This document shows, one piece after another, positions 1-18,529 of a stretch of DNA of 18,529 nucleotides; position 1 is the first letter of the stretch; each line of letters starts with the position of its first letter. A model generated the notes under the pieces. It did not search any database, was not told the origin of the DNA, and worked only from the letters and a program-made list of their open reading frames with translations. Made by a program: the position numbers and the translations under genes. Source of the DNA: an uncultured Verrucomicrobiota bacterium (GTDB taxonomy: Bacteria; Verrucomicrobiota; Verrucomicrobiae; Verrucomicrobiales; DEV007); contig CACJBM010000041.1 of NCBI GenBank assembly GCA_902591645.1, positions 1-18,529 on the forward strand, read 5' to 3'.

Positions 1-1
1 A

Positions 2-172
2 ATCCGATGCTGGATAGATAAAAGATTAGTCGTTAATTGCCTCATCAAGGACAAGCACATTTCTATTCGCCCGGGCCCCATTGAAAAGTGTCAGCCTCTT
101 GGAGTAGCAAGTTATGACACTAAAGTGGAATTTGAATCGATCTCTTTAAGAAAAATTCAGACCAAAAACTAA
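2..172 (+). CDS. 3' end of a DUF1080 (3-keto-disaccharide hydrolase-like) protein, cut by the window edge
   Basis: An open frame runs in from the window edge and stops with TAA at 170-172, giving the last 56 residues of a protein. They read CWIDKRLVVN..., then HISIRPGPIEKCQPLGVASY, and finish KIQTKN. This matches the last strands of a DUF1080 jelly-roll and lines up well with the end of the DUF1080 protein at 15846-16562 (KKIVNVGIKGRKIGMRFGEI..., then VPLGLSTFRTTAEYKNIKIR). Shared positions include the 'K-hydrophobic-V-N' strand, the 'I-R-x-G-x-IE' turn and the 'PLG' loop. DUF1080 proteins are usually secreted glycan-binding or glycan-cleaving proteins. The N-terminus, signal peptide and most of the domain lie outside the window, so export cannot be judged. 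The family call rests on a short tail. Confidence 0.72.
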   Translation: MRCWIDKRLVVNCLIKDKHISIRPGPIEKCQPLGVASYDTKVEFESISLRKIQTKN

Positions 173-228
173 TCAATGAAGTCACTACTTTGCAGATCTG
201 GCAATTATGCATTAATAGTTAAAACACA

Positions 229-1071: not shown

Positions 1072-1078
1072 TATCAAA

Positions 1079-3769: not shown

Positions 3770-3815
3770 CACCAGATATACTAATGCCCGTAATATAAAT
3801 AACGAGTCTGATCTG

Positions 3816-3838
3816 AGAAAAGAACCTTATTCTTTTCT
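3816..3838 (-). terminator. AT-rich hairpin directly after the 111-residue gene
   Basis: AGAAAAGAA (3816-3824) and TTCTTTTCT (3830-3838) form a perfect 9-base-pair stem with a 5-base loop. It begins immediately after the stop codon of the minus-strand gene at 3839-4174. The stem is AT-rich and no U-run follows on that strand, so it may be a weak terminator or an mRNA 3'-end stabiliser. Confidence 0.35.
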
Positions 3839-4174
3839 TTAAGAAAGCCAAGGCTTAGCAGGAACGGACCCTCGAGAACGAGAACGTTTGTAACCTCCCC
3901 CATTAGCTGCCTGCCAAGCACTAATGCGACGAATAAGTTCTCCTGTGGTCGAATCTCCTGATACCGTATCGGCTAGGATACTTGCCAAATCACTATCATA
4001 TCTGATTATATCTTCGGCAAGTTCTCTGAGGCTATCTTCTTCAGCAGATTCTTTAGCATATATCCAATCGCTTGGATCATCATGACTTCCCGGCTTGTCT
4101 CCATTTAATTCTGAAGGCATATCAAATTCATTTTTATCAATATTTTCCGGGCTGTTCGATCTTGGGTTAGGCAT
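3839..4174 (-). CDS. Small acidic protein of unknown function, paired with an RHH-like gene
   Basis: A 111-residue protein that I do not recognise. Residues 1-50 are polar and acidic with many Pro, Asn and Asp, and look disordered. Residues 45-90 look helical (EEDSLRELAEDIIRYDSDLA, then ELIRRISAWQAANGG). The last 20 residues are basic (KRSRSRG) and end in PAKPWLS. There is no signal peptide or membrane helix, so it should be cytoplasmic. It starts 23 bases after the stop of the RHH-like gene upstream and is followed at once by a hairpin, so the two are probably one transcript. The acidic head and basic tail would suit a protein that binds a partner or nucleic acid, but that is a guess. It could be an antitoxin-like or regulatory partner; no toxin fold is visible. 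Confidence 0.6.
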   Translation of the reverse strand: MPNPRSNSPENIDKNEFDMPSELNGDKPGSHDDPSDWIYAKESAEEDSLRELAEDIIRYDSDLASILADTVSGDSTTGELIRRISAWQAANGGGYKRSRSRGSVPAKPWLS

Positions 4175-4197
4175 TTTATGTAATGTATTTCTTGGAT

Positions 4198-4404
4198 CTA
4201 TTGATCTTCGGATTTTGAATCCAAAAACGTAGATCCCTTTTCTATGTATTCCCTGATCGAATCGATTAGTAAAAGGTTCGCAGTCTCGGCAGCATTCTTA
4301 CCGAACATCCCCGTCTCGGTCATCCGATCTAGGTGTTCGCGAACCCTTTCCGTTACAGAAACGGTCAGTTGCACAGAGGAAATCGCATTTTTTTGCCGAG
4401 CCAT
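4198..4404 (-). CDS. Small ribbon-helix-helix-like putative DNA-binding protein
   Basis: A 68-residue protein if translation starts at the ATG at 4404 (MARQKN...). The frame also has an upstream ATG at 4443, but the extra 13 residues (MRKEWHYYSIFIW) are aromatic and unlike the start of a soluble regulator, so the inner start is preferred. The core is a short strand, SVQLTVSVTE, then two helices, VREHLDRMTETG and NAAETANLLLIDSIREYIEK. This strand-helix-turn-helix order with 'G-x-x-G-K-N-A-A-E' in the turn resembles RHH regulators and many small antitoxin-like proteins, which bind operator DNA as dimers through the strand. It is followed after 23 bases by the acidic small protein. An RHH at the head of a two-gene unit often represses its own promoter, which would lie within 4405-4600. 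The fold call is inferred from pattern only. Confidence 0.55.
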   Translation of the reverse strand: MARQKNAISSVQLTVSVTERVREHLDRMTETGMFGKNAAETANLLLIDSIREYIEKGSTFLDSKSEDQ

Positions 4405-4610
4405 CCAGATAAAAATAGAATAATAATGCCATTCTTTTCTCATTTGTAAAACATTTTTTTGATAATTATAGCAATTTTGCTTTATCTAGATCTGAAAGGG
4501 CAAACGGCCTAAATTTATAAAACTTTTGAATCAGATCGACTGCAGATCTCGACTTCAAGTATTCAACAAGAAAATAAATAACGATTTATTCTTATTAATG
4601 CCCGCCCTTT

Positions 4611-4638
4611 AAAAATGCATTTCAATTTGCTGAAATGC
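4611..4638 (-). terminator. Rho-independent terminator of the cytochrome/DUF1501 operon
   Basis: GCATTTCA (4617-4624) and TGAAATGC (4631-4638) make a perfect 8-base-pair stem with a 6-base loop. On the minus strand the stem is followed by ATTTTT (4616-4611). It lies 24 bases after the stop codon of the cytochrome-LRR gene, the last gene of the operon, so it fits an intrinsic terminator for that transcript. Confidence 0.65.
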
Positions 4639-4661
4639 TACTCGAGACAAATGTGAATCGA

Positions 4662-5648
4662 CTAAAAGTCAAACTTGCCAGGATCCTCAAGATTGTCAAA
4701 ACGACCAGCTCTATCATCAGTGTCACGAACGATTTTCGCTTCTGGCAAAGCTTTGCGAAGTGTGGAAACTCCATTAGAAGTGACCGCAGTATTCCAAAGA
4801 TATAGTGCTTTTAAATCCCGGTACTTTGCTATGATCGGCACACTCGCGTCTGTGACTTTGGTCCCATATAAATTCAACCATTCCAAAGATTGTAAATCAG
4901 CTAACGCTTCAATTCCCTTATCACCGATCTGAGTCCGATTAAGATTCAAATGAGTCAATCTTCCCAGTTTCCCAACATGCTTGAGACCCGCATCAGTGAC
5001 CTTGGTCCGACTAAGATCGGCTTCAACTACATTTGCCGCTAAATGCAGGATCTGTTCTATTTCCTTATCTGTTATCTTGTGATAGGTCGAAATCCATTCA
5101 ACTGATAAGTATTCTGGAAGGGTAACAGAAACTGGATTAATTGTTGCTCCTAAACCTTCGAGGTGAGCTATTGCATCTGCGTTCGGTTCCCTAGCCGGCG
5201 TACTCTTTACTTTTCGCGCATCAAGGTCAGCAGGAATTTTACCCAATGATCCGCCAGAACCAGAACTGAATTTAGCTCCATCATCAATCCACTTCTTTAT
5301 TAAGGCCAATTCCTTGGCTGATAAAGGACTACCATCATCTGGAGGCGGCATTATATCATCAGCGTTCCTGGGTAATGATACACGTATGTAAAGTTCGCTA
5401 CTTAATGCGTCTCCAGGCTCCAAGACACCGCCTGATCTTATTCCTGTAGGAGTGTCCAGAGCAAGGCCGGCTTTGGGCTTCTTATCTGATTCCTTCTTCT
5501 TGGCAGTGTGACAAGAATTGCACTTCGATGCCATGATAGGAGCAATTTGTTTTTTATAATCAACGTCTTGCCCAAGGCCCACCAAAGGCAGAACCACGAT
5601 TCCCATCACAGTAATGGAAAAATTGCGTAAAGGAATATTCAGCATCAT
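4662..5648 (-). CDS. Exported PVC-type cytochrome c domain fused to leucine-rich repeats
   Basis: A 328-residue exported protein. The signal peptide is about residues 1-26 (hydrophobic, ending VGLGQ). A planctomycete-type cytochrome domain follows: haem site CNSCH (43-47), then GLALDTPTGIRSGG, the loop MPPPDDG (101-107) and a closing helix LIKKWIDDGAKF, as in PSCyt1. After a linker, four leucine-rich repeats of about 24 residues cover 207-301 (for example LTHLNLNRTQIGDKGIEAL), giving a protein-binding solenoid. It is the last gene of an operon with a DUF1549/DUF1553 and a DUF1501 gene, 61 bases after the latter. It may act as the electron-carrying or docking part of that surface system. Family members with this domain pair are common in Planctomycetes and Verrucomicrobia, but their biochemical role is not settled. 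Confidence 0.88.
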   Translation of the reverse strand: MMLNIPLRNFSITVMGIVVLPLVGLGQDVDYKKQIAPIMASKCNSCHTAKKKESDKKPKAGLALDTPTGIRSGGVLEPGDALSSELYIRVSLPRNADDIMPPPDDGSPLSAKELALIKKWIDDGAKFSSGSGGSLGKIPADLDARKVKSTPAREPNADAIAHLEGLGATINPVSVTLPEYLSVEWISTYHKITDKEIEQILHLAANVVEADLSRTKVTDAGLKHVGKLGRLTHLNLNRTQIGDKGIEALADLQSLEWLNLYGTKVTDASVPIIAKYRDLKALYLWNTAVTSNGVSTLRKALPEAKIVRDTDDRAGRFDNLEDPGKFDF

Positions 5649-5709
5649 GCCAATGCAAATAATAAGAAAAGGAGTTACCAGGGACTCCTCAATTTATATT
5701 ATCTAATTA

Positions 5710-7020
5710 CTATGCAAAGACCTCTTTGACAGGCTTAGCCTCATCGCCAATGGTAAATGGACGGCCCGAAGGAGAATTTACAACTCTTTCTGTAGGTAGA
5801 CCCAAAGCGTGACCAATCGTAGCATTGAACATTCCAGGAGTAACTACACCTTCTTTGACTGTATGTGCTTTGCGATCAGTTTCTCCGTAAACAAAGCCAC
5901 CCTTGACACCGCCGCCTGCCATTAAACAGGTGAAGGCCCTAGGAAAATGATCTCTGCCTGTATTTTCATTAATTTCAGGAGTCCTTCCAAATTCAGTTCC
6001 AAGCGCAACTAATGTAGAATCCAAGAGGCCTCTTCTTTCGAGGTCAGATATGAGACCTGCGAGAGCAGTGTCTAAAATCTGACACCTAGACTCTACAGAT
6101 ACAAAGTTGTCATTATGTGTGTCCCATCCACCCATGCTCACTTCTATGAACCTGACTTGGTGCTCAACTAGACGACGTGCCAATAGGCAACCTTGACCAA
6201 ATCCGTTCTGACCATATAGGTCCCGAATCTTAATATCTTCATTATTAAGGTCGAAGGCCTTAAGGTCTTCACTGGTCATCAGTTTGATGGCCTCATCATA
6301 AAGACCATTGTAGGTCTTGATTTGTTTCTGTTTAAATTTTCCGTGAAAGGTTGAATTCATCTTATCAGCAAGCTCAAGACGACGATTGAAATCCGGCTCA
6401 CTGACTGAATGTGCTCTCTTAGAATCTTTGAGCCCATCATTCGCATTGCCGAGTGGAACACCCCCATACTTTGCACCCATGAATCCTCCAGTCGCATTCT
6501 CAGCGGAACCTCCAACCGATACGAATCCTGGAATTGTCGTGTTCCTTCGGCCTGATAATCTCATGACCCAAGCTCCTAAAGCCGGATGCACAATAGTGCC
6601 ACGCATAGGATAGCTCCTATGAAGAAGGTACTGGCCCTGTTCATGCGCGCCCTGATTAGTCTGCATTCCGCGGAAAAGAGTAATGTACTTCATCATGGCC
6701 GCAGTCTTCGGAAGGAATCCTGAGATTTGTATACCATCTGCACTAGTATCTATTACCGGAGTCGGTCCCTGAACTTCTTGATTTTGAGGCTTAGGGTCAA
6801 AGGTATCTAAATGACTCATGCCCCCAGACATATTAAGAAAGATAACACTCTTGGCCGCACCACGGCGCATCGGTGGAGCTGCTGCGAAAGTATCGTTAGT
6901 TGCAACGGTGGCTCCAAGCATTGGCAAAACGCTTACTCCCAAGCAATTCTTGGCAGCACCTATCATGAATTGCCTACGAGTTAGTTCGTCGCTCTTATTA
7001 TATATGGTTTTATCTGACAT
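5710..7020 (-). CDS. Tat-exported DUF1501 protein
   Basis: A 436-residue member of DUF1501, an alkaline-phosphatase/sulfatase-like superfamily protein of unproven activity. The N-terminus has a twin-arginine motif TRRQFMIG (14-21), then a hydrophobic stretch ending near TFAAA (44-48), so it is exported folded. Family motifs are clear: GGMSHLDTFDPK (66-77), GGWDTH (297-302), GTEFGRTPE (341-349), GRDHFPRAF (355-363) and GGGVKGGFVYGETD (369-382). The conserved Asp and His residues in these blocks would suit metal binding, and Tat export fits a cofactor loaded in the cytoplasm. It lies 51 bases after the DUF1549/DUF1553 gene, its usual partner in this phylum, and 61 bases before the cytochrome-LRR gene. 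The pair is widely co-encoded, so the products probably act together; the substrate is unknown. Confidence 0.93.
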   Translation of the reverse strand: MSDKTIYNKSDELTRRQFMIGAAKNCLGVSVLPMLGATVATNDTFAAAPPMRRGAAKSVIFLNMSGGMSHLDTFDPKPQNQEVQGPTPVIDTSADGIQISGFLPKTAAMMKYITLFRGMQTNQGAHEQGQYLLHRSYPMRGTIVHPALGAWVMRLSGRRNTTIPGFVSVGGSAENATGGFMGAKYGGVPLGNANDGLKDSKRAHSVSEPDFNRRLELADKMNSTFHGKFKQKQIKTYNGLYDEAIKLMTSEDLKAFDLNNEDIKIRDLYGQNGFGQGCLLARRLVEHQVRFIEVSMGGWDTHNDNFVSVESRCQILDTALAGLISDLERRGLLDSTLVALGTEFGRTPEINENTGRDHFPRAFTCLMAGGGVKGGFVYGETDRKAHTVKEGVVTPGMFNATIGHALGLPTERVVNSPSGRPFTIGDEAKPVKEVFA

Positions 7021-7071
7021 TTTTTTGTAGCAGTTTACTTGTTTATGTACTGAAATCTTTTCTCAAATTAA

Positions 7072-9015
7072 TTACTGAAGAAACATGAACTCCGCAGTAG
7101 AAATTAAGGCCGACACCATGTTCTCTGGGGCCGCAGCTCCATTTGATTTAAATTCCTCAATGAATATTTCTTTCTCTAAATTCGTAGGTAATCTTGACAG
7201 TATACTAATAAAGGCACGGTCAATTTTTTCCTCATCAGTCTTACCCTTCTTAATTACACGAAAAACTTTTGCATTGCCATTAGCAGTGATATGTCGCTCA
7301 ACGTGTCCGTTCAGGATTGAAAGTACTTGAGTAACATCTGAATCAGTACTTGAGTTTTCAATGACCTCACGGTTCGACTGTCCAAACTGTCGAAGGAAAT
7401 GACCATTAGGCATTGGTGATTTAAGTTCAGAAGCACGCATTTCATTCCCGTGCTTCTTACTAGAATTATAAGCCATCATCATCATCTGCATCTTCTCTCC
7501 ACCTCCTTTACTGCCACCTTTGTCTCCCTTTATCTGGTCGTGCAGTTTCTTTGTATAATCCCAAACTTCTGTACCCGTATCCAAGGCCATCACATCATTA
7601 TAAAGGTCCTTCATGGATTTCTTACCAACCAGTACGGGTCTCCCCCTATAAATGATAGCGTCTCCTCCATAACCGTTCCCTTTCCTCTCATCAAGATTAT
7701 CAACTTTGAGAGTTAATAGAGAATCCCAAATCTGCTCAGCGCTTAAACGTTTTAATTGGCGGCCATTAAAATGGTAAGCGGCCCTGTCAGGGTGTTGAAT
7801 GGTGTTAGGGCTGAGCTGAAAAGCGTAACTCTTATAAAGAACCTTCTGAAATGCCTTAAGATCATAATCAAGATCAATTAAGAGTTCTTCTAGATATGAC
7901 ATTAGAGAAGGGTTAGACGGCTCAGAGGCTGAGCTGAAGTTATCAAGCGGTTCAAATAGACCCGTTCCCATGACCCTCTTCCACATTCTATTTGCTATGA
8001 CCTTTGTGAATCTTGGATTATCAGAATTCACTAACCAATCAGCAAATTTCTGCCGGGCCTTCCCTGGATCAGTGCTCTTGGATCTAGTACTAACTTTGAC
8101 CGTCTTACCGAAATGACTCAAGGACTTGGCTCCGACCCTCTCACCAGGATCTCCGTCACGATACTTATAGTCTTTCGGCAACTTAATGGTGCCTGTTCCA
8201 GAATCACTAATTGAAAAATCATAGACCGCATATCTAACTAACCTCGACACGTCCCTAAGCTCCCTGCTAACGCCGTCCATATCTTCTTTGTCTTCGAGAT
8301 AGTTGGATAAATGACTCTTGGCTGTCTTGATACCGTTGGTGAACGCAGCCATCTGATAAAAGTCCATCTGCTTCCATGAATCGAACGGATGATTGTGACA
8401 CTGCGCACATTCGATCCGAGTCCCTAGAAATATCCTAGTCGTGTTGGCCATATTGTCCTTAAGCATGCCAGTGTCCCTCACATAGTAACCAACGGCACCG
8501 TTCTGCCATCCACCTCCAGTAGCTGCAACTAGTTGGTGTACCATCGTTTTGTATGACTTGTTTTCGGCGATGGAATCCTTAATCCATTTTATGTAAGGTG
8601 CACCGGAAGTGTTCTCAAATGTGTCAGTGGCCCTTAACAAGTCTGCCCACCAATTGAACATATGCATGTTATAGCCATAAGAACTTAACAACAGGTCAAT
8701 GAGTTTATTGCGCTTCTCTGGATCCTGATCATTAAGAAATTCTACAGATTCTTCGTAAGAAGGAATGCGACCAATTACATTAAGATACGCTCTTCGGAGG
8801 AACTCGGAATCGGTAGCCTTTCCAAGTGGCCGTATCTGCTTTCTTCTGAAATCAGCACCCACGAGTCTGTCGATTTTTTTTGATGCCTCAATTTGAAATT
8901 CAACTGATTGGCTTTTGGAAACAGATCCTGCTCGTTGAGCAAGTTGTGAACTTGCATCTAGAACAAAAAAGGCAGTAAAAAATGCCAGAGCAGTGCTAAT
9001 CCTTATCCGCTTCAT
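7072..9015 (-). CDS. Exported DUF1549/DUF1553 protein with cytochrome-like CxxCH motif
   Basis: A 647-residue protein, first gene of a three-gene operon. A signal peptide covers about residues 1-23 (ALAFFTAFFVLDASS). DUF1549 spans about 45-230 and has the typical LRRAYLNVIGRIPSYEE (73-89) and CAQCHNHPFDSW (203-214) blocks; the CxxCH could bind haem or a metal. DUF1553 covers about 320-640 with FADWLVNSDNPRFTKVIANR (324-343). This member has no N-terminal PSCyt1 domain; that cytochrome type appears instead in the third gene of the operon. An unusual low-complexity linker rich in Gly and Lys, then Met (GDKGGSKGGGEKMQMMMM, 497-514), sits inside the DUF1553 half. The paired DUF1501 gene follows after 51 bases. 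The complex is presumed to work at the cell surface or periplasm, perhaps on polymers, but no activity is established. Confidence 0.92.
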   Translation of the reverse strand: MKRIRISTALAFFTAFFVLDASSQLAQRAGSVSKSQSVEFQIEASKKIDRLVGADFRRKQIRPLGKATDSEFLRRAYLNVIGRIPSYEESVEFLNDQDPEKRNKLIDLLLSSYGYNMHMFNWWADLLRATDTFENTSGAPYIKWIKDSIAENKSYKTMVHQLVAATGGGWQNGAVGYYVRDTGMLKDNMANTTRIFLGTRIECAQCHNHPFDSWKQMDFYQMAAFTNGIKTAKSHLSNYLEDKEDMDGVSRELRDVSRLVRYAVYDFSISDSGTGTIKLPKDYKYRDGDPGERVGAKSLSHFGKTVKVSTRSKSTDPGKARQKFADWLVNSDNPRFTKVIANRMWKRVMGTGLFEPLDNFSSASEPSNPSLMSYLEELLIDLDYDLKAFQKVLYKSYAFQLSPNTIQHPDRAAYHFNGRQLKRLSAEQIWDSLLTLKVDNLDERKGNGYGGDAIIYRGRPVLVGKKSMKDLYNDVMALDTGTEVWDYTKKLHDQIKGDKGGSKGGGEKMQMMMMAYNSSKKHGNEMRASELKSPMPNGHFLRQFGQSNREVIENSSTDSDVTQVLSILNGHVERHITANGNAKVFRVIKKGKTDEEKIDRAFISILSRLPTNLEKEIFIEEFKSNGAAAPENMVSALISTAEFMFLQ

Positions 9016-9112
9016 TATGGTTTAATATAGCTTATATTGCGGGGCATCTGCAACCAGAGAATAAGTTGCAAGAATAGATTGAATATTTAGCTTCCTTAAA
9101 TATATATCCCTT

Positions 9113-9139
9113 AAAAAAAGCTGTAAATACTAGAGCTTT
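9113..9139 (-). terminator. Weak terminator after the ABC permease gene
   Basis: On the minus strand AAAGCT (9139-9134) and AGCTTT (9122-9117) can pair across an 11-base loop and are followed by a run of T (9119-9113). It lies 12 bases after the permease stop codon. The stem is short and AT-rich, so it is only a modest candidate. Confidence 0.4.
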
Positions 9140-9150
9140 ATTACTTTTCG

Positions 9151-9996
9151 TTAACCCCTTATGAACGGTAACTTCCAACCACCGTCACCCGCAACACGGA
9201 TGTCACGTAATCCAAAACCGGTTCTGGCTAGAAATAATAAAACCAAAGCAACTAGAAACAGCTTAATGAAAGGGACAATTTCAAAGCCCATCATTGCATT
9301 ACTTTGGTAATAAGTGAGTGGGGAAAAAACAGCCCAACTTTCAAGACCCTTAATAGCCTTAGATAAAGTAGTAATGATGTAGCCTGCTAATACCAGGATG
9401 CCTGAGATCATTGCGGCAGAGGAACGGGACGGCACGCACATACTAAGTGCCAAGCTGAAACAGGCAAAGAACCATGTCACAACAAATACGGATACATATG
9501 GGAGTAACAATTGAAAAGGTGGGAAGTTCATAGATCCTGCCTTAACAACACCTATCCACAGACCCAGCCAACCCAGACCAATAATACACGAAAGACTAGC
9601 AGTGAAAGCAATGACCCTTCCCCAGAAAAGTTGTCCTCGGCTGACAGGATGAGCGAGTACAAAATCAAGAATCCCTCTCTCCTCATCAGCTGCTAATAGA
9701 CCACTCCCCGACACTGATCCGTAAATACCAAGGATGACCGGTAGGAATGCAAAATATCGTAATGATATGAATCCTTCAGGAGTAAAAATCTGTTCAGCCT
9801 CATCACCCCCTATGAAACTCTTAACTAATGGTTTTAAGTTTTCAAGGACTGGTCGTAATTGCCTTTCATTTTCTGCAACCAAATCATAGAAAGGAATCGT
9901 TATAATGCCCAAAAGCATTAGAGGAATTCCCCAGCCTATGATCGCCCAAACCGATCGACGAAAAGAATATCTGGTAATAATATAAAACTTATTCAT
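9151..9996 (-). CDS. ABC-2 type transporter permease
   Basis: A 281-residue inner-membrane permease. Starting at the ATG at 9996 (MNKFYIITRYSFRRSVWAII) gives the usual short amphipathic head before the first helix. An AAGGAA sequence lies just upstream, making this start much better than the ATG at 10062, which would add a lysine-rich segment inside the ATPase gene. About six membrane helices are visible, at roughly residues 17-38, 84-105, 120-145, 160-190, 199-225 and 245-262, with an ERGILDFVLAHPVSR stretch (about 107-121) typical of ABC-2 exporters between helices two and three. The start overlaps the end of the ATPase gene by 8 bases (ATGAATAA), so the two are translationally coupled and form one transporter. 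The substrate is unknown; the family exports drugs, lipids or peptides. Confidence 0.85.
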   Translation of the reverse strand: MNKFYIITRYSFRRSVWAIIGWGIPLMLLGIITIPFYDLVAENERQLRPVLENLKPLVKSFIGGDEAEQIFTPEGFISLRYFAFLPVILGIYGSVSGSGLLAADEERGILDFVLAHPVSRGQLFWGRVIAFTASLSCIIGLGWLGLWIGVVKAGSMNFPPFQLLLPYVSVFVVTWFFACFSLALSMCVPSRSSAAMISGILVLAGYIITTLSKAIKGLESWAVFSPLTYYQSNAMMGFEIVPFIKLFLVALVLLFLARTGFGLRDIRVAGDGGWKLPFIRG

Positions 9997-10945
9997 TTCC
10001 TTTTTTTTCCGGCTGATCTCTTTCAATCGCTTCTCCATAATAGGAAAGAAAAACCTCCTCAAGGTCAGGCCTACCAGTCTCGATAGACTCTACATTATAT
10101 CCAGCCAATACCTTAATGAGGTCATCCATTTCCCCATCAACCATTAATTTTAACTCACGTCCATCCGGACTTACCTCGTCCAATAGGATACCAGTCAATG
10201 CTTCTATTTCTTCAGTACGCACTACTGTATTTTCTGCAAAAATCACTTTCATCCTCCAAGCTCTTCCAGACAAAAGTGAACTCGTTTCTCCAACTTCAAC
10301 GATCTGCCCCTCCCTTATAATTGCAACGCGGTCGGCAATGGCCTGAACCTCGGCAAGGACGTGTGAAGAAAAGAAAACCGTAGCCCCTGAACGGCGTGAT
10401 TCCTTGACCATTTCAAGTACAGTCTGTTGAATTAGCGGGTCCAGACCACTCGTCGGTTCATCCAGTAAAAGGAGATCAGGACAATTCATAAATGCAGCAA
10501 TAATCCCCACCTTTTGTTTGTTGCCTTTTGATAGATTCTTTATTTTCGACTTGATATTAAGATCCAACTGCTCAGCAAGTTCCTGAGCTCTACTGCGACA
10601 ATTCTCTCCTCCTCCGCGAAGTTCTCTCAAAAACTCCAAAACGGAATGCACTGAAATATTCTCATCAAGCCTAAGCTCACCTGGCAAATATCCGCAATAC
10701 TTACGGACTGCAACTGGATCCGATTGAGGGTCCTTTCCAAGGACGGAAACTGTTCCTGCATCAGGACGAATAAGGTCAAGCATACAACGAATTGCGGTCG
10801 TTTTACCGGCGCCGTTTGGACCAAGAAATCCAAAAACTTCACCTCTATTTACAGTCAAATCTATTCCCTTAAGGGCCAAGAAAGACCCGTAGGACTTTGA
10901 CAGATTATTTACATGTATTGCGGGATCAGACCCCTTATCGTTCAT
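9989..10945 (-). CDS. ABC transporter ATP-binding protein
   Basis: The ATPase of an ABC-2 type exporter, about 318 residues. Motifs seen, numbered from the ATG at 10945: Walker A GPNGAGKTT (42-50), signature LSKGNKQ (138-144), Walker B LLLLDEP (158-164) with catalytic Glu163, D-loop SGLD, and H-loop His195 in SSHVLAE. A C-terminal extension of about 90 residues after the nucleotide-binding core (EAL...SPDGRELKLMVDGEMDDL) resembles the regulatory tail of drug and lipid exporters. A TTG at 10954 is also in frame but the ATG gives a normal head. The upstream unknown gene stops 5 bases before this start, and the permease overlaps its end, so three genes are co-transcribed. Confidence 0.92.
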   Translation of the reverse strand: MNDKGSDPAIHVNNLSKSYGSFLALKGIDLTVNRGEVFGFLGPNGAGKTTAIRCMLDLIRPDAGTVSVLGKDPQSDPVAVRKYCGYLPGELRLDENISVHSVLEFLRELRGGGENCRSRAQELAEQLDLNIKSKIKNLSKGNKQKVGIIAAFMNCPDLLLLDEPTSGLDPLIQQTVLEMVKESRRSGATVFFSSHVLAEVQAIADRVAIIREGQIVEVGETSSLLSGRAWRMKVIFAENTVVRTEEIEALTGILLDEVSPDGRELKLMVDGEMDDLIKVLAGYNVESIETGRPDLEEVFLSYYGEAIERDQPEKKGNE

Positions 10946-10950
10946 TAATC

Positions 10951-11397
10951 TCAATTAAAAAAAATAGTTCTTGGGTCCACCCAAAGACGAACCGAATCAT
11001 TAGATGATACTTCATCAATCTTCGGAGCCGTTACTTCGATGACACTAGGATCTTGAAAATGTTCAGGCTTAGTTTCTGGATGGGGCCAATAAATAAGCCC
11101 AGTGACACACTTACTCAAGCCAACAGACAGGCTCACTTCAAAGAAAGAAAAGTCCTCAGCCGGACAATCAGCGTGCCATTTAACATTTTTAAATGCGTGG
11201 GTTGGATTGACAGGATTTGGTTTTAAAGGAAATACCGAAATATTAATCGTGGCTCGATAATAACCGTTCAAATTCAATCCATTCTTTTCAAATATTGGCC
11301 ACTGAAGGGCCAGAGTACCTTCAGGAAAACGAGGATCTCCGGCTCGCCCTGAAGCGACGCCATGCCCCTTAACAATTTGCCCAAAAATAATATCCAT
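10951..11397 (-). CDS. Conserved-looking protein of unknown function, first gene of the ABC operon
   Basis: A 148-residue cytoplasmic protein starting at the ATG at 11397 (MDIIFGQIVKGHG...); an in-frame TTG at 11412 is less likely. It has no signal peptide or membrane helix. Blocks that look conserved are GQIVKGHGVASG, DPRFPEGTLALQWP, a segment GYYRATINISVFP, and IYWPHPETKPEHF near residues 105-120. The pattern 'G-x-V-x-G-x-G ... F-x-G-T-L ... I-N-I' is faintly like the core of CTP-dependent riboflavin kinases (DUF120), which have a GTLN block. The match is too weak to assign that activity. It stops 5 bases before the ABC ATPase start, so it is probably co-transcribed with the exporter. Function unknown. 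Confidence 0.7.
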   Translation of the reverse strand: MDIIFGQIVKGHGVASGRAGDPRFPEGTLALQWPIFEKNGLNLNGYYRATINISVFPLKPNPVNPTHAFKNVKWHADCPAEDFSFFEVSLSVGLSKCVTGLIYWPHPETKPEHFQDPSVIEVTAPKIDEVSSNDSVRLWVDPRTIFFN

Positions 11398-11418
11398 TGA
11401 ATTCAAAACCAATCAAAG

Positions 11419-11447
11419 GAATCTGATTTAGCATAATATCCAGATTC
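11419..11447. promoter_or_regulatory. Inverted repeat in the divergent promoter region
   Basis: GAATCTG (11419-11425) and CAGATTC (11441-11447) are exact inverted copies separated by 15 bases, and the match extends imperfectly outward (AAGGAATCTG against CAGATTCTTT). The spacer holds TATTAT on the minus strand, one base from a -10 box. It lies 22 bases upstream of the operon start at 11397, so it could be an operator. No known regulator motif is recognised. Confidence 0.3.
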
Positions 11448-11596
11448 TTTTATCACGGAACATGTTTTAGGTAATGGGTATATTTGATTTAAAAAACGAA
11501 TTAGAATTGGCTTCAACAAAATGCACTAATGATTAAATGAAATCAATGAGCTAAATCCCATTTGTGTTTCAGTGGATCTTCCCGAAAATTAATATC

Positions 11597-12040
11597 ATGT
11601 CTAAGCATCAAGTCATACTAAATTGGAAGCGTCAAGGTGCTCCTTTTACTTATAAGGAATTTCCAAGAGCACATACTTGGGACTTTGGTAACGATGAACT
11701 CGTGAAAGCATCTGCTGCCCCCGATTTTCTTGGAGACCCTTTACTGGCAGATCCTGAGCAGGCCTTTGTAGCATCATTAGCAAGTTGTCATGCGCTTACC
11801 TTCCTCGCTCTGTGTTCATTACAGAAAATTACAGTGAACTCTTACTCTGACACAGCTATAGGATACTTAGAAAAAGCAGAAGACGGTAAGCCGTGGCTTT
11901 CTAAGATAGAACTAAATCCCTCAATAGATTTTGAAGAAAGCGAAAAATGTGACCCTGCAAACATAAAAGATATACATCAAAAAGCTCACCTCGAATGCTT
12001 CCTAGCACGCTCAGTAAAAACCCAAATAACAATTAATTAG
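11597..12040 (+). CDS. OsmC-family peroxide-reducing protein
   Basis: A 147-residue cytoplasmic protein of the OsmC/Ohr family, thiol-dependent reductases of organic peroxides. Family features are the block DPEQAFVASLASCHALTFL with Cys64 at the start of the central helix, and a second cysteine, Cys134, in HLECFLARSV. These two are placed as expected for the catalytic pair. The N-terminal strands carry KASAAPDFLGDPLLADPEQA, the usual lead-in. The start at 11597 (MSKHQV...) is preferred over the ATG at 11564 because the first 11 residues of the longer form (MFQWIFPKINI) are not family-like. The exact subfamily (OsmC, Ohr or YhfA-like) is not fixed by what is visible. The gene stands alone, divergent from the ABC operon, and no peroxide-sensor gene is next to it. 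Confidence 0.88.
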   Translation: MSKHQVILNWKRQGAPFTYKEFPRAHTWDFGNDELVKASAAPDFLGDPLLADPEQAFVASLASCHALTFLALCSLQKITVNSYSDTAIGYLEKAEDGKPWLSKIELNPSIDFEESEKCDPANIKDIHQKAHLECFLARSVKTQITIN

Positions 12041-12112
12041 AAATTAATGACTTCCAGATCAATTAAATCAGCACTCTTGTCCATTGGACATAATTGATGT
12101 TAGTCTAATAAT

Positions 12113-13141
12113 ATGAAATCAATATTTTATCTCCTCATTACAGTTCTTTGCCTGAGTTTCTTTTCGCCTTCGCTACAAGCTCAAAATCTAGTCTACGAAG
12201 GCACTTCCGGTATTGGTAAGGGAAAACATATTGTTTTCATTGCAAGTGATCATGAATATCGTGGCGAAGAAACATGCCCTGCCATTGCTCGTATTCTGGC
12301 TCATCGATACGGTTTCAAATGCACTGTTCTTTTTGGTTTAGATGATAATGGGCACATCAAACCAGGATCCTCAAAGATCCCAGGAATGGAGGCCTTGGAC
12401 AAAGCAGATATGATGTTTTTATTCCTTAGATTTTTAGCTCCCGATGACGCATCAATGGAACATTTCATTAATTATCTGAATCGCGGAGGACCGGTCCTCG
12501 GATTACGCACGACAACGCATGGCTTCAATGGCCTCAAAGGAAAAAACAGCAAGTACAATTACAACTCACGAGACAAGAGCTACGACTGGGGATTTGGCCG
12601 TCAGATACTAGGTGAGACCTGGAGACCGCGTGAAGGTGCTGGACATTATGGAAGAAACCATAAATTCAGCACACGAATGTTCGTGGTTCCAGAGCAAAAA
12701 AATCATCCTGTCATGCGCGGAGTAAAGGATATGCACGCGATGGCTGGAGCGTACAGTGCAGTGCCTATCGAGGGATCTGTCATACTGGGCAAGAACCAAG
12801 TTCTCGATTCAATGAAACCGGACGGCAAGCCACTCCCCAATAAGCCTCCTAGCCCCTCAATTTGGGTCCGTAGCTACAAATCTGCTTCTGGTAATGAGGG
12901 GCGTGTTTTCACTTCTACCCAGGGCGCTTCTGAAGATATTATTAGTGAAGGTGTCAGGCGTTGTATTATTAATGGAGTGTTTTGGTGCATGGGTCTTGAA
13001 GAAAGTATAAAAGCTGACATGAATGTCGATTTTGTAGGCCCATACCAACCAACAACATTCAGCTTCGGAGGTGGACGAAAGAAGGTAAAGCCAACAGATC
13101 TTGCAGGCTTTGAAAGCCCCATAATGCCAAAGAAGAAGTAG
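12113..13141 (+). CDS. Secreted ThuA-like domain protein
   Basis: A 342-residue exported protein. A signal peptide covers about residues 1-23 (hydrophobic, ending SLQA-Q). A ThuA-like domain, a glutamine-amidotransferase-like fold, spans about 37-300: the first strand KHIVFIASDHEYRGEE (38-53) is followed by a helix PAIARILAHRYGF, a strand with the FLFLRFLAPD loop, and GGPVLGLRTTTHGF (125-138). Later blocks GHYGRNH and HPVMRGVKDM fit the family, where a His-rich pocket is present. ThuA proteins are linked to sugar use, and in this phylum they are often co-encoded with DUF1080 proteins and dehydrogenases, so a role in oxidised-sugar breakdown is plausible. The C-terminus (last 40 residues) is basic and may be disordered. 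No ribosome binding site is seen before the ATG. Confidence 0.85.
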   Translation: MKSIFYLLITVLCLSFFSPSLQAQNLVYEGTSGIGKGKHIVFIASDHEYRGEETCPAIARILAHRYGFKCTVLFGLDDNGHIKPGSSKIPGMEALDKADMMFLFLRFLAPDDASMEHFINYLNRGGPVLGLRTTTHGFNGLKGKNSKYNYNSRDKSYDWGFGRQILGETWRPREGAGHYGRNHKFSTRMFVVPEQKNHPVMRGVKDMHAMAGAYSAVPIEGSVILGKNQVLDSMKPDGKPLPNKPPSPSIWVRSYKSASGNEGRVFTSTQGASEDIISEGVRRCIINGVFWCMGLEESIKADMNVDFVGPYQPTTFSFGGGRKKVKPTDLAGFESPIMPKKK

Positions 13142-13203
13142 ACGTTTCTTATTTTTGAGCAACACAATTTACTAGCCCAAATCAAAAAATATTTTCCGTG
13201 ACA

Positions 13204-13236
13204 CACCTTTATCTTAATGAAAGGTGAAAATCACCT
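13204..13236 (+). promoter_or_regulatory. Two mutually exclusive hairpins in the leader of the CAP-domain gene
   Basis: CACCTTT (13204-13210) can pair with AAAGGTG (13220-13226), while AGGTGA (13222-13227) can instead pair with TCACCT (13231-13236). The middle arm is shared, so only one hairpin can form at a time. It lies 40-70 bases before the start codon, between the ThuA gene and the CAP gene. No U-run follows the second hairpin. It could be a leader switch, a protein-binding dyad or chance. Confidence 0.3.
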
Positions 13237-13275
13237 ATGCGATAACATTGATAGGAAGGAAAATAAATCTTGTAA

Positions 13276-14349
13276 ATGCTTCAAAGAATTACACGGCTCA
13301 TACTTTTTGCCCTCACTCCATTGGTGGTATCAACTAATGCGTTAGGTATAGATGCCCAAGCAAAAGATATTAATTCTTTGAACAAACGTGACAAGGCCCG
13401 CGCCTCTTTACTTTTTAAGGACTACGAAAAATATCAGGGTAACCATAGAAGGCGTACAGAAATTATTCGCCAAATGATGGGTCTTGGCCGTCCGGTAGCA
13501 CAGAAGATGTTTGATCTTATTGATCGTGACATTCGTAAAAAATGGCCACTCTATCAAGGAGGGTTTACTGCCAGTGCTCAAAAAACAGGCGCCAGAAAAA
13601 ATACTATACAGGTCAGAAATGAAATCGCCGCACTTCAACTAAAAGTGCAAAGCTTAAGAAGCTTGGGAAAGGGATTAACCAAAGAAAAAATAATTCAGAT
13701 TGGTGATCCGGCATTAAAACGTTTACACAAGCTCAAAATAATTGAGATGAGAGAAATCTTTAATTCCAACTCAAAGCTAGGCAAGCAAAGAGAAGACATC
13801 ATTGCCCTTTCCGAACAACGAGCGATATGCATTGACCGTTTGGTTCTGCGAGAAGATGAAGCTGAAACTTTTGGACTCAAAGAAATATCAGAATACGAAA
13901 AATTAACCGCCTCACTGGCATTGGGTCCTCCACTAGGTCATCTGCAAATACTCAATCTCAACTCTAAAATCAATAAGACTGTACCACCTGAAGAGGCCGC
14001 CGCGGTTCGTGATATGAATCAATACAGGATCCTCATTGGATTGAGACCATGCCTCTTGGATCCGGGCCTATGCCTCGCTTCAAGAGAACATTCACAAGAC
14101 ATGGAAAAAAAGAATTTTTTCGCACACGATTCCCCCATTCCTGGAAAAAAAACCCCTTGGCAAAGAGCTAAACTGGTAGGTACCACAGCCAATTCTGAAA
14201 ATATATTTAAAGGCAATAAAGATGGCCCTGCTGCGAACCGAGCATGGTGGTATAGTCCAGGCCATCACATCAACATGCTAAGCCCTAATGCAAAACGTGT
14301 AGGAATGGGAGTACATGGAAAGCATTGGACTCAAATGTTTGGCCCATAA
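13276..14349 (+). CDS. Secreted protein with C-terminal CAP (SCP/PR1) domain
   Basis: A 357-residue exported protein. A signal peptide covers about residues 1-23 (ILFALTPLVVSTNAL). Residues 25-240 are helical, charged and without cysteine-rich motifs, likely a coiled-coil or helical spacer. Residues about 245-357 form a CAP domain: MNQYRILIGLRPCLLDPGLC, ASREHSQDM, FFAHDSP, SENIFKGN and WYSPGHHINML. The His residues in FFAHDSP and GHHINML and the Glu in SEN are the usual CAP-cavity residues. Two cysteines, in RPCLL and GLCLA, may form a disulphide. CAP proteins bind ligands or act in the cell envelope; bacterial ones are poorly understood. A purine-rich AGGAAGGA at 13253-13260 is a possible ribosome binding site but lies 15 bases from the ATG, rather far. 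Confidence 0.88.
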   Translation: MLQRITRLILFALTPLVVSTNALGIDAQAKDINSLNKRDKARASLLFKDYEKYQGNHRRRTEIIRQMMGLGRPVAQKMFDLIDRDIRKKWPLYQGGFTASAQKTGARKNTIQVRNEIAALQLKVQSLRSLGKGLTKEKIIQIGDPALKRLHKLKIIEMREIFNSNSKLGKQREDIIALSEQRAICIDRLVLREDEAETFGLKEISEYEKLTASLALGPPLGHLQILNLNSKINKTVPPEEAAAVRDMNQYRILIGLRPCLLDPGLCLASREHSQDMEKKNFFAHDSPIPGKKTPWQRAKLVGTTANSENIFKGNKDGPAANRAWWYSPGHHINMLSPNAKRVGMGVHGKHWTQMFGP

Positions 14350-14408
14350 CTAACTATCAATTAGTGCTCTAATTTGGTACTCGCCAAAAACAATCAACAT
14401 ATAGTAAA

Positions 14409-15332
14409 ATGTTCACCATGAAACCCTTACACTTACCTTTCTTGTGCTCTCTCTTATTGAGTGTGAATACTTTTACAACACAAGCTCAAACAGACGATTT
14501 TGATGACGGGAATGATAACGGGTGGGTTAGGGTTAATACTTTGGCAGGACAGGGCATCCCGGCAACGTGGGGTTTTCCTAACAATAACTCCTATAGCATT
14601 GCCATGGAAGGCCACGGTATCGAACCGCTTGGTCAGCCAAGGGCTGGAAGCTTCAGAGAAGAAGCAACCTACTCAGACTTTTACATAGCAGTAGATATTA
14701 TTTTTGATCCAACGATAGATCAGAACATGGGGATCCTTGCACGCGTACGCGAGGTAGGACTGGGAACACTGGACGGATATGGAGCAGTATACAATCCAAG
14801 GGACGCTGATCCGGGAGGTAAAATTTATATTGCCAACATCAATGACGAAGCCGGAGTCACTATCGGGGAGGCAGTTCCTGAGGAAGCTCTCGGTGATAAT
14901 TTGAGAATTGTTTTTAGAGGCAAGGGTCCAGAACTGACTTTGGAGCTCTACTCTCAAGAAGACCTTTTGAATCCAGTTGCGGTTGCCGAAGCATTTGATG
15001 AAAGTCATGAATCTGGCATTGCGGGAGTGTTCAGTTTTTCAGATGGCGTCACTGTGCCTATTGACGCGACCTTCGATAACTATGTCGCAGCAGAAAAAGA
15101 GCCTTATCGTTTCGAAATGATTGGTGCCACAATAGAAGGCGACGAAATGACTATCGAATTTTACAGCAAACCGGGACTCATTTATTCAATCGAAAGCAGT
15201 AATGACCTTATCCTATGGGAAGAGATTGATGATAGCATCGAAGGCGCGCTTGGGGACCGGACAAGTTTTACCGTTGACTATGAGAAGGGAGTCTCAAAAT
15301 TTTTCAGATTTAATGCACTGGAAGAAAATTAA
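14409..15332 (+). CDS. Secreted jelly-roll protein with Verrucomicrobia-type C-terminal domain
   Basis: A 307-residue exported protein. A signal peptide covers about residues 1-26 (PFLCSLLLSVNTFTTQA). Residues 28-230 are strand-rich and look like a concanavalin-like or DUF1080-like jelly-roll: DDFDDGNDNGW opens it, YSDFYIAVDIIFDP is an inner strand and GIAGVFSFSDGV then ATFDNYVA closes it. Residues about 235-305 are a small module with GLIYSIESSNDLILWEEI and FTVDYEKGVSKFFRF, a type common at the ends of secreted Verrucomicrobia proteins. It is probably a glycan- or polymer-binding protein; no catalytic residues can be named. An ATG at 14418 is an alternative start. The stop shares TTAA with the stop of the convergent lipoprotein gene. 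Confidence 0.75.
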   Translation: MFTMKPLHLPFLCSLLLSVNTFTTQAQTDDFDDGNDNGWVRVNTLAGQGIPATWGFPNNNSYSIAMEGHGIEPLGQPRAGSFREEATYSDFYIAVDIIFDPTIDQNMGILARVREVGLGTLDGYGAVYNPRDADPGGKIYIANINDEAGVTIGEAVPEEALGDNLRIVFRGKGPELTLELYSQEDLLNPVAVAEAFDESHESGIAGVFSFSDGVTVPIDATFDNYVAAEKEPYRFEMIGATIEGDEMTIEFYSKPGLIYSIESSNDLILWEEIDDSIEGALGDRTSFTVDYEKGVSKFFRFNALEEN

Positions 15333-15865
15333 TTAGGTGCATCCTTTTCTTCGCCTTCAAGGACAGTATCAATAAAATCAAAAGAGTTTACCACTTCATC
15401 AAAGGTTTTTCCTTTTCCGGTAAAAACATAAATTCTTCCAAAGTTCCGCACGATGATCCGCCTCATCGTACTTTCATCATTATCAGGATCATTCGTTATT
15501 TCAAAGGTGATAGCACGTTCATTATCAATGCTAAGAGTTCTTTCTGTTCCATGGACTAATGGCCTCCTTACTTCCTCTATCCAGCTAGGAGCATATGTCG
15601 CTAATTCCAGAATCGGAAAATCATTTCCCGGGTACTCCAATCGCAAAACAATATCAGGTTCTCCTGCAACAGCTCTGTCCTCGACTTTAAGATTTAGTAC
15701 ACTGGGATATCGTAGAGTAAAGCGTAAGGCTTCGTTATAATATTGCTGCAGACCGGGAATCGATGCTCTCGGATCCTTTGGTTCTAGGGTCTCACAACCC
15801 AAAAAAAATAGTGGAAATAGGGTTACTAGAAAGTATGAGGCCCTTTTAAAATTCATCTTCTTCAT
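15329..15865 (-). CDS. Predicted lipoprotein of unknown function
   Basis: A 178-residue protein with a clear lipoprotein signal: basic head MKKMNFKR, hydrophobic stretch, then FFLGC with the lipidated Cys at residue 24. The mature part is about 150 residues, mixed strand and helix, with YYNEALRFTLRYPSVLNLKV, FPILELATYAPSW and IIVRNFGRIYVFTGKGKTFD. The order of strands and the final IYVFTG...FDEVVNSFDF segment faintly recall PsbP/DcrB-like folds, but this is only a hint. The start at 15865 overlaps the end of the DUF1080 gene by 20 bases, so the genes are probably coupled; the ATG at 15856 is also possible, and the first ATG-type codon at 15895 is unlikely. It may be an envelope partner of the secreted DUF1080 protein. 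Confidence 0.72.
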   Translation of the reverse strand: MKKMNFKRASYFLVTLFPLFFLGCETLEPKDPRASIPGLQQYYNEALRFTLRYPSVLNLKVEDRAVAGEPDIVLRLEYPGNDFPILELATYAPSWIEEVRRPLVHGTERTLSIDNERAITFEITNDPDNDESTMRRIIVRNFGRIYVFTGKGKTFDEVVNSFDFIDTVLEGEEKDAPN

Positions 15866-16562
15866 CAAGCTTCTTTGCCGCAGCAATTTCCGCATCCTCT
15901 AAATGACGTATCTTTATATTTTTATATTCAGCGGTAGTGCGAAAAGTAGACAAACCTAACGGCACCGATTCCTCGATCTCTCCAAACCTCATTCCAATTT
16001 TCCTTCCCTTAATACCAACATTAACAATTTTCTTTTCTCCAACAAATGCTTGGAAACGGTTGTCAGACACTAATAAACGTAACTTATACCACTTACCCTC
16101 ATCAAAGTCTCTGACGGTCATTGTTGAGTTCTCCATCGCATCCATAAAATCGATACTTGAAATACCGCAAACCGATCCACCCCATCCTCCAAGAACAAAA
16201 GAAGCATGACTTTTCTTGTATGGGAATGTCAGGCAACAAAAGAAATCTTCGCCTTCGACTCTTCTTGCCTCTAATGATAATTCATAATTTACCTTTGGTA
16301 ATTTTCTCTTATCAAAGTTTTCAATTCTGATTCCACTCAGAATCTCTCCACGGGCAACTCTGACCGTACCCGTTTCCGGATTCACTTTGACCTCACCCAT
16401 GCCGGCATAATTACACAACTTCCAACCTTTTAGTGTCTTGCCATCAAAAAGGGGAATCGATTTTTTAGCTGATGTTTTCGCTGGCTTCTCCTCTTCAGCA
16501 AATAAATTTAACAAGGAAAAAAGAGCCAAGCAGATCACGGCAGGAAAGGTTTTGATTTTCAT
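15846..16562 (-). CDS. Secreted DUF1080 (3-keto-disaccharide hydrolase-like) protein
   Basis: A 238-residue exported protein, starting at the ATG at 16562 (MKIKTFPAVICLALF...); the in-frame start at 16607 would put 15 extra residues before the signal peptide. The signal peptide ends near FAEE (about 22). The DUF1080 jelly-roll opens with IPLFDGKTLKGWKL (36-49), the family hallmark, and continues with VNYELSLEARRVEGEDFFCC (91-110), SFVLGGWGGSVCGISSID (121-138), DFDEGKWYKLRLLV (152-165) and a closing STFRTTAEYKNIKIRHL (205-221). The C-terminus is an acidic, Ala/Lys-rich tail (EDAEIAAAKKLDEEDEF). Some family members cleave 3-keto-glycosides; no activity is shown here. It lies 54 bases after the HemL-like frame and overlaps the lipoprotein gene by 20 bases. 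It is a paralogue of the truncated gene at the window start. Confidence 0.88.
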   Translation of the reverse strand: MKIKTFPAVICLALFSLLNLFAEEEKPAKTSAKKSIPLFDGKTLKGWKLCNYAGMGEVKVNPETGTVRVARGEILSGIRIENFDKRKLPKVNYELSLEARRVEGEDFFCCLTFPYKKSHASFVLGGWGGSVCGISSIDFMDAMENSTMTVRDFDEGKWYKLRLLVSDNRFQAFVGEKKIVNVGIKGRKIGMRFGEIEESVPLGLSTFRTTAEYKNIKIRHLEDAEIAAAKKLDEEDEF

Positions 16563-16616
16563 TTCAATTAGTAACTTAAGCACAACTGCAGTGGCGTGGA
16601 AGAACAAACAAAGGAT

Positions 16617-18383
16617 CTAACTAAAAGCATTCTCAATCACCTTGACGGTCCTTAAAATATCTTCTTCACTATGTGCCATAGAAATGAAACCGGTTTCATA
16701 AGGTGAAGGGGCAAGAAAAACTCCATTATTGAGACAATAATGAAAGAAACCCTTAAAAGAACCTGACTCAGCAGCAGCAGTGGCCGAGCTAAGATCATTG
16801 ACCGGAGATTTAGTAAAAAACAGGCAAAACATAGAGCCTATTCGATGAAAAATGTATTCCTTGCCTGATTTTGATAAGGCCTCACGTACACCCTTTTCAA
16901 AAAGAGCTCCACTTTGCTCTAGTCTTTGCCACCCTTGAAGCTTATCCAACTCTTTTAGCTGAGCCAATCCTGCTGCCATTGCAAGAGGGTTCCCCGAAAG
17001 CGTTCCGGCCTGATAAACTGGACCGTCCGGTGCAAGCTGATCCATGATTTCAGCTCTCCCACCAAAGGCACCTACAGGGAGCCCGCCTCCAATCACTTTT
17101 CCCATAGCAGTGAGATCAGGCATCACTCCATAAAGTTCTTGAGCACCTCCTTTTGCTATACGAAATCCAGTCATCACTTCATCAAAGATCAACAATGATT
17201 CATGCTCCTTGGTGATCTCACGTAAGAATTCAAGAAACCCATCCTCAGGAAAAAACAAACCCGCATTAGCCGGTATCGGTTCCAGAATCACTGCAGCAAT
17301 TTGGCTGCCATGAGCTGAGAAAATCTGCTGAACTTTTTCCGGATCATTGAATGGTAAGGTAATCGTCTCGGAAGCAAATGCCTTGGGTACACCGGCACTA
17401 TCAGGCTCACCATGAGTCAAAGCGCCACTGCCTGCAGCCACAAGTAAGGAATCAACGTGTCCATGGTAACAGCCTTCAAATTTTATTATCTTATCACGGC
17501 CTGTATAACCTCTTGCCAAACGGATTGAAGACATTGTTGCCTCAGTCCCACTGTTAACCATGCGCACCTTTTCGACAGATGGAACCCAATCCACAATAAC
17601 CTTTGCCATCTCGATCTCAAAAGGATTAGGAGTACCAAAGCTAACACCTCTCTTGGCTGCCTCATGAACGGCCTCTATCTGGTCATCATTGAGAACTTCC
17701 TGCCATATGGCTAGGTCATCGATGAGGCCAACATAATTTTCTCCTCCACCATTACGTCCACCGATGATCAATGCTCCTCCACCGTTAGGGCCTTGCTGAT
17801 TATTCATTTCTGAGTCGAATACTCCATTCACATAAATTGCTCCCCGGTTATTATCCGCATCGTATGTAAAGGTTGTATGCGCCCATTCGTCTGGGTTTAA
17901 TCTTTGTTGGCCCTGGAAGTCTGATCCCCAGTGAGCGTGGTAAAGATTCCCGCCTCTGAATCCATGATGGATTCCCTGACTGCCCTGACCAAAGTAAAAA
18001 CGGTCACCATTAAAGGACGCCTGATCGGGCCTGATCCAGCAAGCCATAGTGTAGCTCGCTTCGATTCCCTGATCCCTATTTCCAAACTCAGTTGGTACAT
18101 CAACACTGTTAACTGAAATGAAACCAGTGCCTCCGACCGAGAACTGGGCTGCTCCGGAAGGGGTCGAACCGTTTGGAGCTCCATCAGCGCCAAAAGTTAC
18201 ATTTCCGGTGACTGCCCCTTCCCGGTCATTACCGCTCCCGTCTGTTACAGTCTGAGTGCCTTGAGGGTCATCAAAGTTGTAATAAAGGAAAGGGTCGGGA
18301 ATTTGAGCCGTCGTAATGAGGCTAAGGCCTATAAAAAAAGTAGAAAATAAAATGGGAACTTTGAGTGAGTGGCGGAGCTTCAT
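16617..18383 (-). CDS. LamG domain fused to N-terminally truncated glutamate-1-semialdehyde aminotransferase
   Basis: A single open frame of 588 residues joins two unrelated parts. Residues 1-26 are a signal peptide. Residues 30-235 are a LamG/concanavalin-type jelly-roll (YYNFDDPQGTQTVTDGSGND, MACWIRPD, AIYVNGVFDS, GLIDDLAIWQEVLNDDQI). From about residue 238 it is HemL, a class III PLP aminotransferase of tetrapyrrole synthesis: NSGTEATMS (277-285), KFEGCYHGH (301-309), FDEVMTGF (400-407), PLP lysine K429 in GKVIGGGLPVGAFGG, and YQAGTLSGNP (457-466). E. coli HemL has 426 residues with its lysine at 265, so the fusion lacks about 80-85 N-terminal residues, which include parts of the substrate pocket. 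A secreted HemL would be odd, so this is a fusion, a decayed gene or an assembly chimera. It would not be safe to call it hemL. Confidence 0.85.
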   Translation of the reverse strand: MKLRHSLKVPILFSTFFIGLSLITTAQIPDPFLYYNFDDPQGTQTVTDGSGNDREGAVTGNVTFGADGAPNGSTPSGAAQFSVGGTGFISVNSVDVPTEFGNRDQGIEASYTMACWIRPDQASFNGDRFYFGQGSQGIHHGFRGGNLYHAHWGSDFQGQQRLNPDEWAHTTFTYDADNNRGAIYVNGVFDSEMNNQQGPNGGGALIIGGRNGGGENYVGLIDDLAIWQEVLNDDQIEAVHEAAKRGVSFGTPNPFEIEMAKVIVDWVPSVEKVRMVNSGTEATMSSIRLARGYTGRDKIIKFEGCYHGHVDSLLVAAGSGALTHGEPDSAGVPKAFASETITLPFNDPEKVQQIFSAHGSQIAAVILEPIPANAGLFFPEDGFLEFLREITKEHESLLIFDEVMTGFRIAKGGAQELYGVMPDLTAMGKVIGGGLPVGAFGGRAEIMDQLAPDGPVYQAGTLSGNPLAMAAGLAQLKELDKLQGWQRLEQSGALFEKGVREALSKSGKEYIFHRIGSMFCLFFTKSPVNDLSSATAAAESGSFKGFFHYCLNNGVFLAPSPYETGFISMAHSEEDILRTVKVIENAFS

Positions 18384-18497: not shown

Positions 18498-18529
18498 CAC
18501 TTTCCGAATAATATGGAACTGATTTATAA

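Follow-up and report, generated by a model that had tools for sequence, protein, structure and literature searches.

The window, by which we mean the whole 18,529-nucleotide stretch of DNA analysed here, contains an open reading frame (ORF) in which an exported LamG domain runs into glutamate-1-semialdehyde 2,1-aminomutase (HemL). We consider it highly probable that this ORF is an artefact of one kind or another, a pure assembly misjoin included, made from hemL and a LamG/TSP3 gene that are neighbours on opposite strands. The apparent LamG–HemL fusion should not be counted as a new protein; most likely, two neighbouring genes were misjoined and one of them was flipped.

The fused reading frame

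The ORF occupies positions 16617–18383 on the minus strand and encodes 588 aa, uninterrupted by a stop codon or frame break. On inspection, the window sequence had no run of Ns at the join. A Pfam scan of the ORF gave a single LamG match (Laminin_G_3, residues 108–236) and Aminotran_3 (residues 237–544), and detected no TSP3. The two domains abut at residues 236/237, which coincides with the break in synteny described below. Of the NCBIfam models, the broader subfamily model NF000818 scored 515.7 bits, above its cut-off of 398, and the equivalog TIGR00713 scored 492.6 bits, below its cut-off of 527.3, over profile positions 68–420 of 423. These two best HemL models align from ORF residue 233 or 234, at profile position 71 or 68, and in the best matches to PDB structures of HemL, only the part of the ORF from about residue 231 on aligned. 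A PLP-lysine motif is present as judged by eye from the translation.

The initial annotation had described an uninterrupted in-frame joining of LamG and HemL, which our analysis bears out, and had proposed that LamG replaces the HemL N-terminus. The replacement stands; its extent, put at 80–85 residues, does not, as an intact relative shows that 74 are lost. The join, placed by the annotation within 17650–17690, could be refined to about 17670–17679, at codons 236–238 (Ile-Glu-Ala).

Searches for the fused architecture

We searched for the same architecture with the protein encoded by the whole ORF and examined the best 120 of 7999 candidates. These comprised 116 HemL-type proteins (PF00202) and 4 LamG/TSP3 proteins, the best HemL-type matches being 91–92% identical over 60–63% of the query. 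A query spanning the junction (residues 195–290; best 120 of 7167 hits examined) returned the same two kinds of protein. Together, both searches listed 169 different proteins, 161 of which match the HemL half only and 8 the LamG half only, and no listed homologue combines the two halves. Had a relative carried the full architecture, its score should have exceeded those of both kinds and placed it first in the lists. Between the two readings that the initial annotation had offered, the new domain architecture is therefore not supported by the homologues listed, and the chimera is supported by the intact hemL genes of relatives. Two proteins, P0143 and P0144, cover 96–99% of the junction region at 50–51% identity and were rejected as fusions; their extension across the junction is attributed to chance because both are 428 aa long, are listed with no Pfam family but PF00202 and match the HemL half alone.

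Whole-ORF searches of genomes gave a similar picture. All 10 genomes behind the loci studied here were matched, as were 68 of 74 genomes in the G414 family (at 1e-60), 259 of 260 in the G001 family, and 13 of 386 drawn from the order of G001 at a strict cut-off of 1e-172. Among the matches listed in these searches, none spans both halves. In the G414 family, no listed match contained both halves, HemL matches starting at query residue 218 or later and LamG matches ending at residue 244 or earlier. Among the matches listed for the two families and the order together, the HemL match reaching furthest past the junction did so to query residue 214, in the G001 family. The 37-mer across the junction had no exact match in viral contigs.

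The probable parent genes

Pfam Aminotran_3, the NCBIfam HemL models and colinearity with relatives identify positions 16617–17678 (minus strand) as the C-terminal part of hemL, residues 75–427 of 427. When an intact 427-aa HemL was compared with the window by tblastn, it matched from residue 75 onward only, and the N-terminal 74 residues are missing from the ORF. The ORF thus resembles HemL (NF000818, TIGR00713, PF00202) in the residues equivalent to 75–427, which are 91–95% identical to the copies in the four closest genomes (G414, 95%; G289, 94%; G369, 92%; G395, 92% and 91%), but differs in having a LamG region where the first 74 residues should be and in missing the TIGR00713 cut-off. HemL is a cytoplasmic enzyme, and its residues 1–74 include substrate-binding positions that are numbered Arg32 and Trp67 in Synechococcus. 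A literature search returned no paper for Arg32 of the Synechococcus enzyme, and a term search of PMC3747428 gave no mention of it.

The ratio dN/dS for the HemL part of the window against five intact copies from four genomes was 0.046–0.071, compared with 0.050–0.064 between intact hemL genes from different genomes; this comparison omits G388, in which synonymous sites were saturated, and the near-identical pair of copies in G395 (0.085). Judged by these ratios, the HemL part is under no relaxed selection and is not a decaying gene, which means that a real join, if there is one, would be very young.

The remainder of the ORF, positions 17679–18383 (minus strand), corresponds by homology to the N-terminal 235 codons of a gene for an exported LamG/TSP3 protein of ~1000 aa, cut off at the join. 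Residues 1–26 (18306–18383, minus strand) form a probable signal peptide of this parent, as seen by eye in the translation. In the protein search, the LamG half was 85–92% identical to P0044, P0052, P0058 and P0078 over 41–42% of the query. The four LamG/TSP3 matches among the best 120 of 7999 are 999, 1017, 1018 and 528 aa long, and within that set the LamG half is closest to P0044-type proteins (92%). It is 78% identical over all 235 residues to the LamG gene in G289:C17 and G395:C11, while none of its other matches of at least 180 residues in the four closest genomes exceeds 50%, with a few short ones at 52–64%.

The ORF shares its first ~235 residues with exported LamG/TSP3_bac proteins (PF13385, PF18884; for example P0044, P0052, P0058 and the gene of G395:C11). 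In these proteins, TSP3 repeats and further LamG matches follow the first LamG, whereas the ORF has neither. LamG and TSP3 families occurred together in all five proteins scanned (P0044, P0052, P0058, P0121 and the G395 gene). The stretch 5′ of the LamG start, from 18384 to the window end at 18529, was compared by local alignment with the sequence that precedes the LamG gene in relatives; the scores of 28 (G289) and 27 (G395) were not above the best of 100 shuffles (32 and 28, respectively).

Further LamG/TSP3 relatives, 62–66% identical to the G395 protein, were seen in G405, G421 and G419 (loci L165, L166, L167 and L168), with two copies on two contigs in G405. These three genomes gave LamG matches and no hemL at 1e-60, and eight other tested neighbour genes were not found in the stretches fetched around their LamG genes, with matches under 80 bits dropped. 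These more distant family members speak against adjacency of the two genes as a general rule. Over positions 17340–18302 (minus strand), the ORF also resembles the second LamG region of the G395 protein, though weakly (34%). This match extends beyond the junction into the HemL part, and we attribute it to similarity between internal repeats that happens to be prolonged by chance.

Gene order in relatives

G414, the nearest genome by HemL, falls in the order of G001 and the family of G002, and the window very likely derives from Verrucomicrobiales. An intact 427-aa hemL is present in six contigs from five genomes (G289:C17, G395:C11, G395:C66, G414:C143, G369:C137 and G388:C44). In all six, it is followed on its 3′ side by a DUF1080-type gene, then a 190-aa-type gene and then a 307-aa-type gene, the G369 contig ending within the last of these. 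The DUF1080-type gene of the window (Pfam 3-keto-disaccharide hydrolase, PF06439; 15846–16607, minus strand) lies downstream of hemL, and this conserved order marks the place of an intact hemL. According to the initial annotation, the fusion would be revealed as an artefact if relatives had an unbroken hemL here with the DUF1080 gene after it, and this is the arrangement in the six contigs. Three of them are colinear with the window from position 1 to 17679: a single unbroken alignment connects window positions 1 to 17678/17679 with G289:C17 (88.5% nucleotide identity), G414:C143 (87.7%) and G395:C66 (83.8%), and in each case it stops at the junction.

Upstream of hemL, a 245-aa gene lies on the other strand in all six contigs. 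Beyond it, four contigs (G289, both of G395, and G369) have a CotH-type gene, whose translation in G395:C11 contains many X; in G388 the LamG gene follows directly, and in G414 the contig ends. The LamG gene is present in G289:C17, G395:C11 and G388:C44, on the strand opposite hemL in all three, whereas the two parts run in the same sense in the window. Across 168 loci, both halves co-occur in four (three distinct contigs, from G289, G395 and G388), always on opposite strands. G414 and G369 are without a close LamG copy (best matches 50% and 47%), and their hemL contigs end before its expected place.

At E up to 1e-60, each of the five closest genomes shows a single hemL apart from G395, where two copies on separate contigs encode proteins that are 99.5% identical. 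The hemL regions of G395 (L158, G395:C11; L159, G395:C66) are near-identical, with a dS of 0.03, and look like a strain mixture.

The junction

The junction codons 236–238 (Ile-Glu-Ala; 17670–17678, minus strand) are encoded in frame by both parent genes in relatives, and when G289 is aligned by BLASTN, the matches on either side of the join share positions 17671–17679. The window reads ATAGAGGCC at the junction. At the same place, hemL of relatives reads ATAGAGGCT, ATAGAGGCC or ATTGAGGCT (five contigs from four genomes; the search pattern missed G388), and the LamG gene reads ATCGAAGCT in both contigs that reach the codon. Measured against the window, hemL agrees at 7–9 of 9 positions and the LamG gene at 6 of 9, figures that describe relatives and not the own-species parents. 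With equal base frequencies, an overlap of at least nine bases would arise by chance in a random join with a probability of about 3e-5, and one of at least six bases with about 1.3e-3.

In the relatives, the two junction points are 6475 bp apart in G289 (positions 759 and 7234) and 6476 bp apart in G395 (9274 and 15750). The hemL match ends where a LamG match begins that lies ~6.5 kb away on the opposite strand in relatives, which characterises the junction as an inversion-type breakpoint. About one third of same-sense joins stay in frame; the in-frame join here is a mild coincidence, and an open fused frame is on its own no evidence for function.

Origin of the join

As the parents are close, opposite-strand neighbours in relatives, an inverted amplification chimera explains the join better than a plain assembly error does, and we regard the amplification mechanism on its own as the probable cause. 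In this scenario the genome was amplified by strand displacement, and a 3′ end being extended within the LamG gene would be freed, would anneal at the short stretch encoding Ile-Glu-Ala to the nearby displaced strand in hemL, and would then be extended in the opposite genomic direction, yielding a fused molecule.

Lasken and Stockwell (2007; PMC1855051) described such products after amplifying a single E. coli cell by multiple displacement amplification (MDA). In that study, inverted joins of segments less than 10 kb apart with short complementarity are the main chimera type: 406 of 475 chimeras were inverted, and 337 of these 406 joined segments less than 10 kb apart. Of the inverted joins below 10 kb, 93.5% had complementarity of 2 bp or more, which overall ranged up to 21 bp. 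The join in the window is alike in its inverted segments less than 10 kb apart and, judged from relatives, may be so in a short common stretch. It differs in being deduced from relatives and not from reads, and in that amplification of the sample is presumed. LamG lies opposite hemL in three contigs of relatives and in the same sense in the window, and the ~6.5 kb between the junction points, measured in G289 and G395, is below 10 kb. On this comparison, orientation and distance fit an MDA chimera; to the extent that relatives reveal it, the complementarity would do so too.

Alignment with relatives shows where the break falls, that the segments are inverted and how far apart they lie, as well as the common codons and the intact state of the parents. 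The amplification of the sample by strand displacement is presumed, and the organism of the window would carry an intact hemL. We also infer that the LamG gene adjoins hemL in the window's own species, although the LamG half is nearer to P0044-type proteins (92%) than to the hemL-adjacent copies (78%).

A pure assembly or scaffolding misjoin, in which no chimeric molecule ever existed, is contained in our overall estimate for an artefact and is by itself improbable. It would likewise leave the parents intact in relatives, and it agrees with the window stopping shortly after the join. Assemblers, however, usually need words longer than about nine bases, and the common stretch, about nine bases by relatives, is below this usual word length and makes a plain assembly error less likely; the join is also free of Ns.

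Less probable still is that the sampled cell or strain underwent a real inversion very recently, in which a ~6.5-kb segment flipped at short inverted homology and broke both genes. A clean inversion of this segment would yield the same join in the same orientation, and since the window extends just 146 bp beyond the LamG start, the sequence by which an inversion could be excluded lies outside it. It would, however, break hemL, of which the closest genomes have a single copy each apart from the two in G395, and hemL is intact in all six contigs of relatives. The HemL part has no relaxed selection, so that the inversion would have to be very recent. As an inversion would break hemL and no examined relative shows one, we rate it as very unlikely. 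Slimmer again is the chance that this cell line has only just gained an exported LamG–HemL fusion, through an inversion at short homology and at the cost of hemL; if true, a fresh inversion with a broken hemL would imply a strain living on external haem or 5-aminolevulinate.

We give practically no credence to a genuine functional gene, by which an exported LamG protein would have gained a HemL-type aminotransferase domain: the frame is open, the start resembles a signal peptide and both domains score well, but the architecture is absent from the 169 listed homologues, the domain boundary falls on the synteny break, HemL residues 1–74 are absent and HemL works in the cytoplasm.

A chimera of neighbouring genes accordingly remains our preferred reading. 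A clean 588-aa in-frame ORF with two well-scoring Pfam domains would mislead automatic annotation. Comparing gene order and strand with those of relatives is a simple check for such fusions, and a chimera should be suspected where a domain boundary falls on an inversion-type break in synteny with short homology.

Other genes of the window

The ThuA-like gene at 12113–13141 (plus strand) scored 28.4 bits, below the Pfam cut-off of 33.4. The 307-aa gene at 14409–15332 (plus strand) has a 49-residue stretch with 45% identity (E 2e-6, single comparison) to the C-terminus of the G395 LamG/TSP3 protein, which is 1014 aa long. Pfam scans name nothing at this stretch, which may possibly be a common C-terminal module of the exported proteins of this group.
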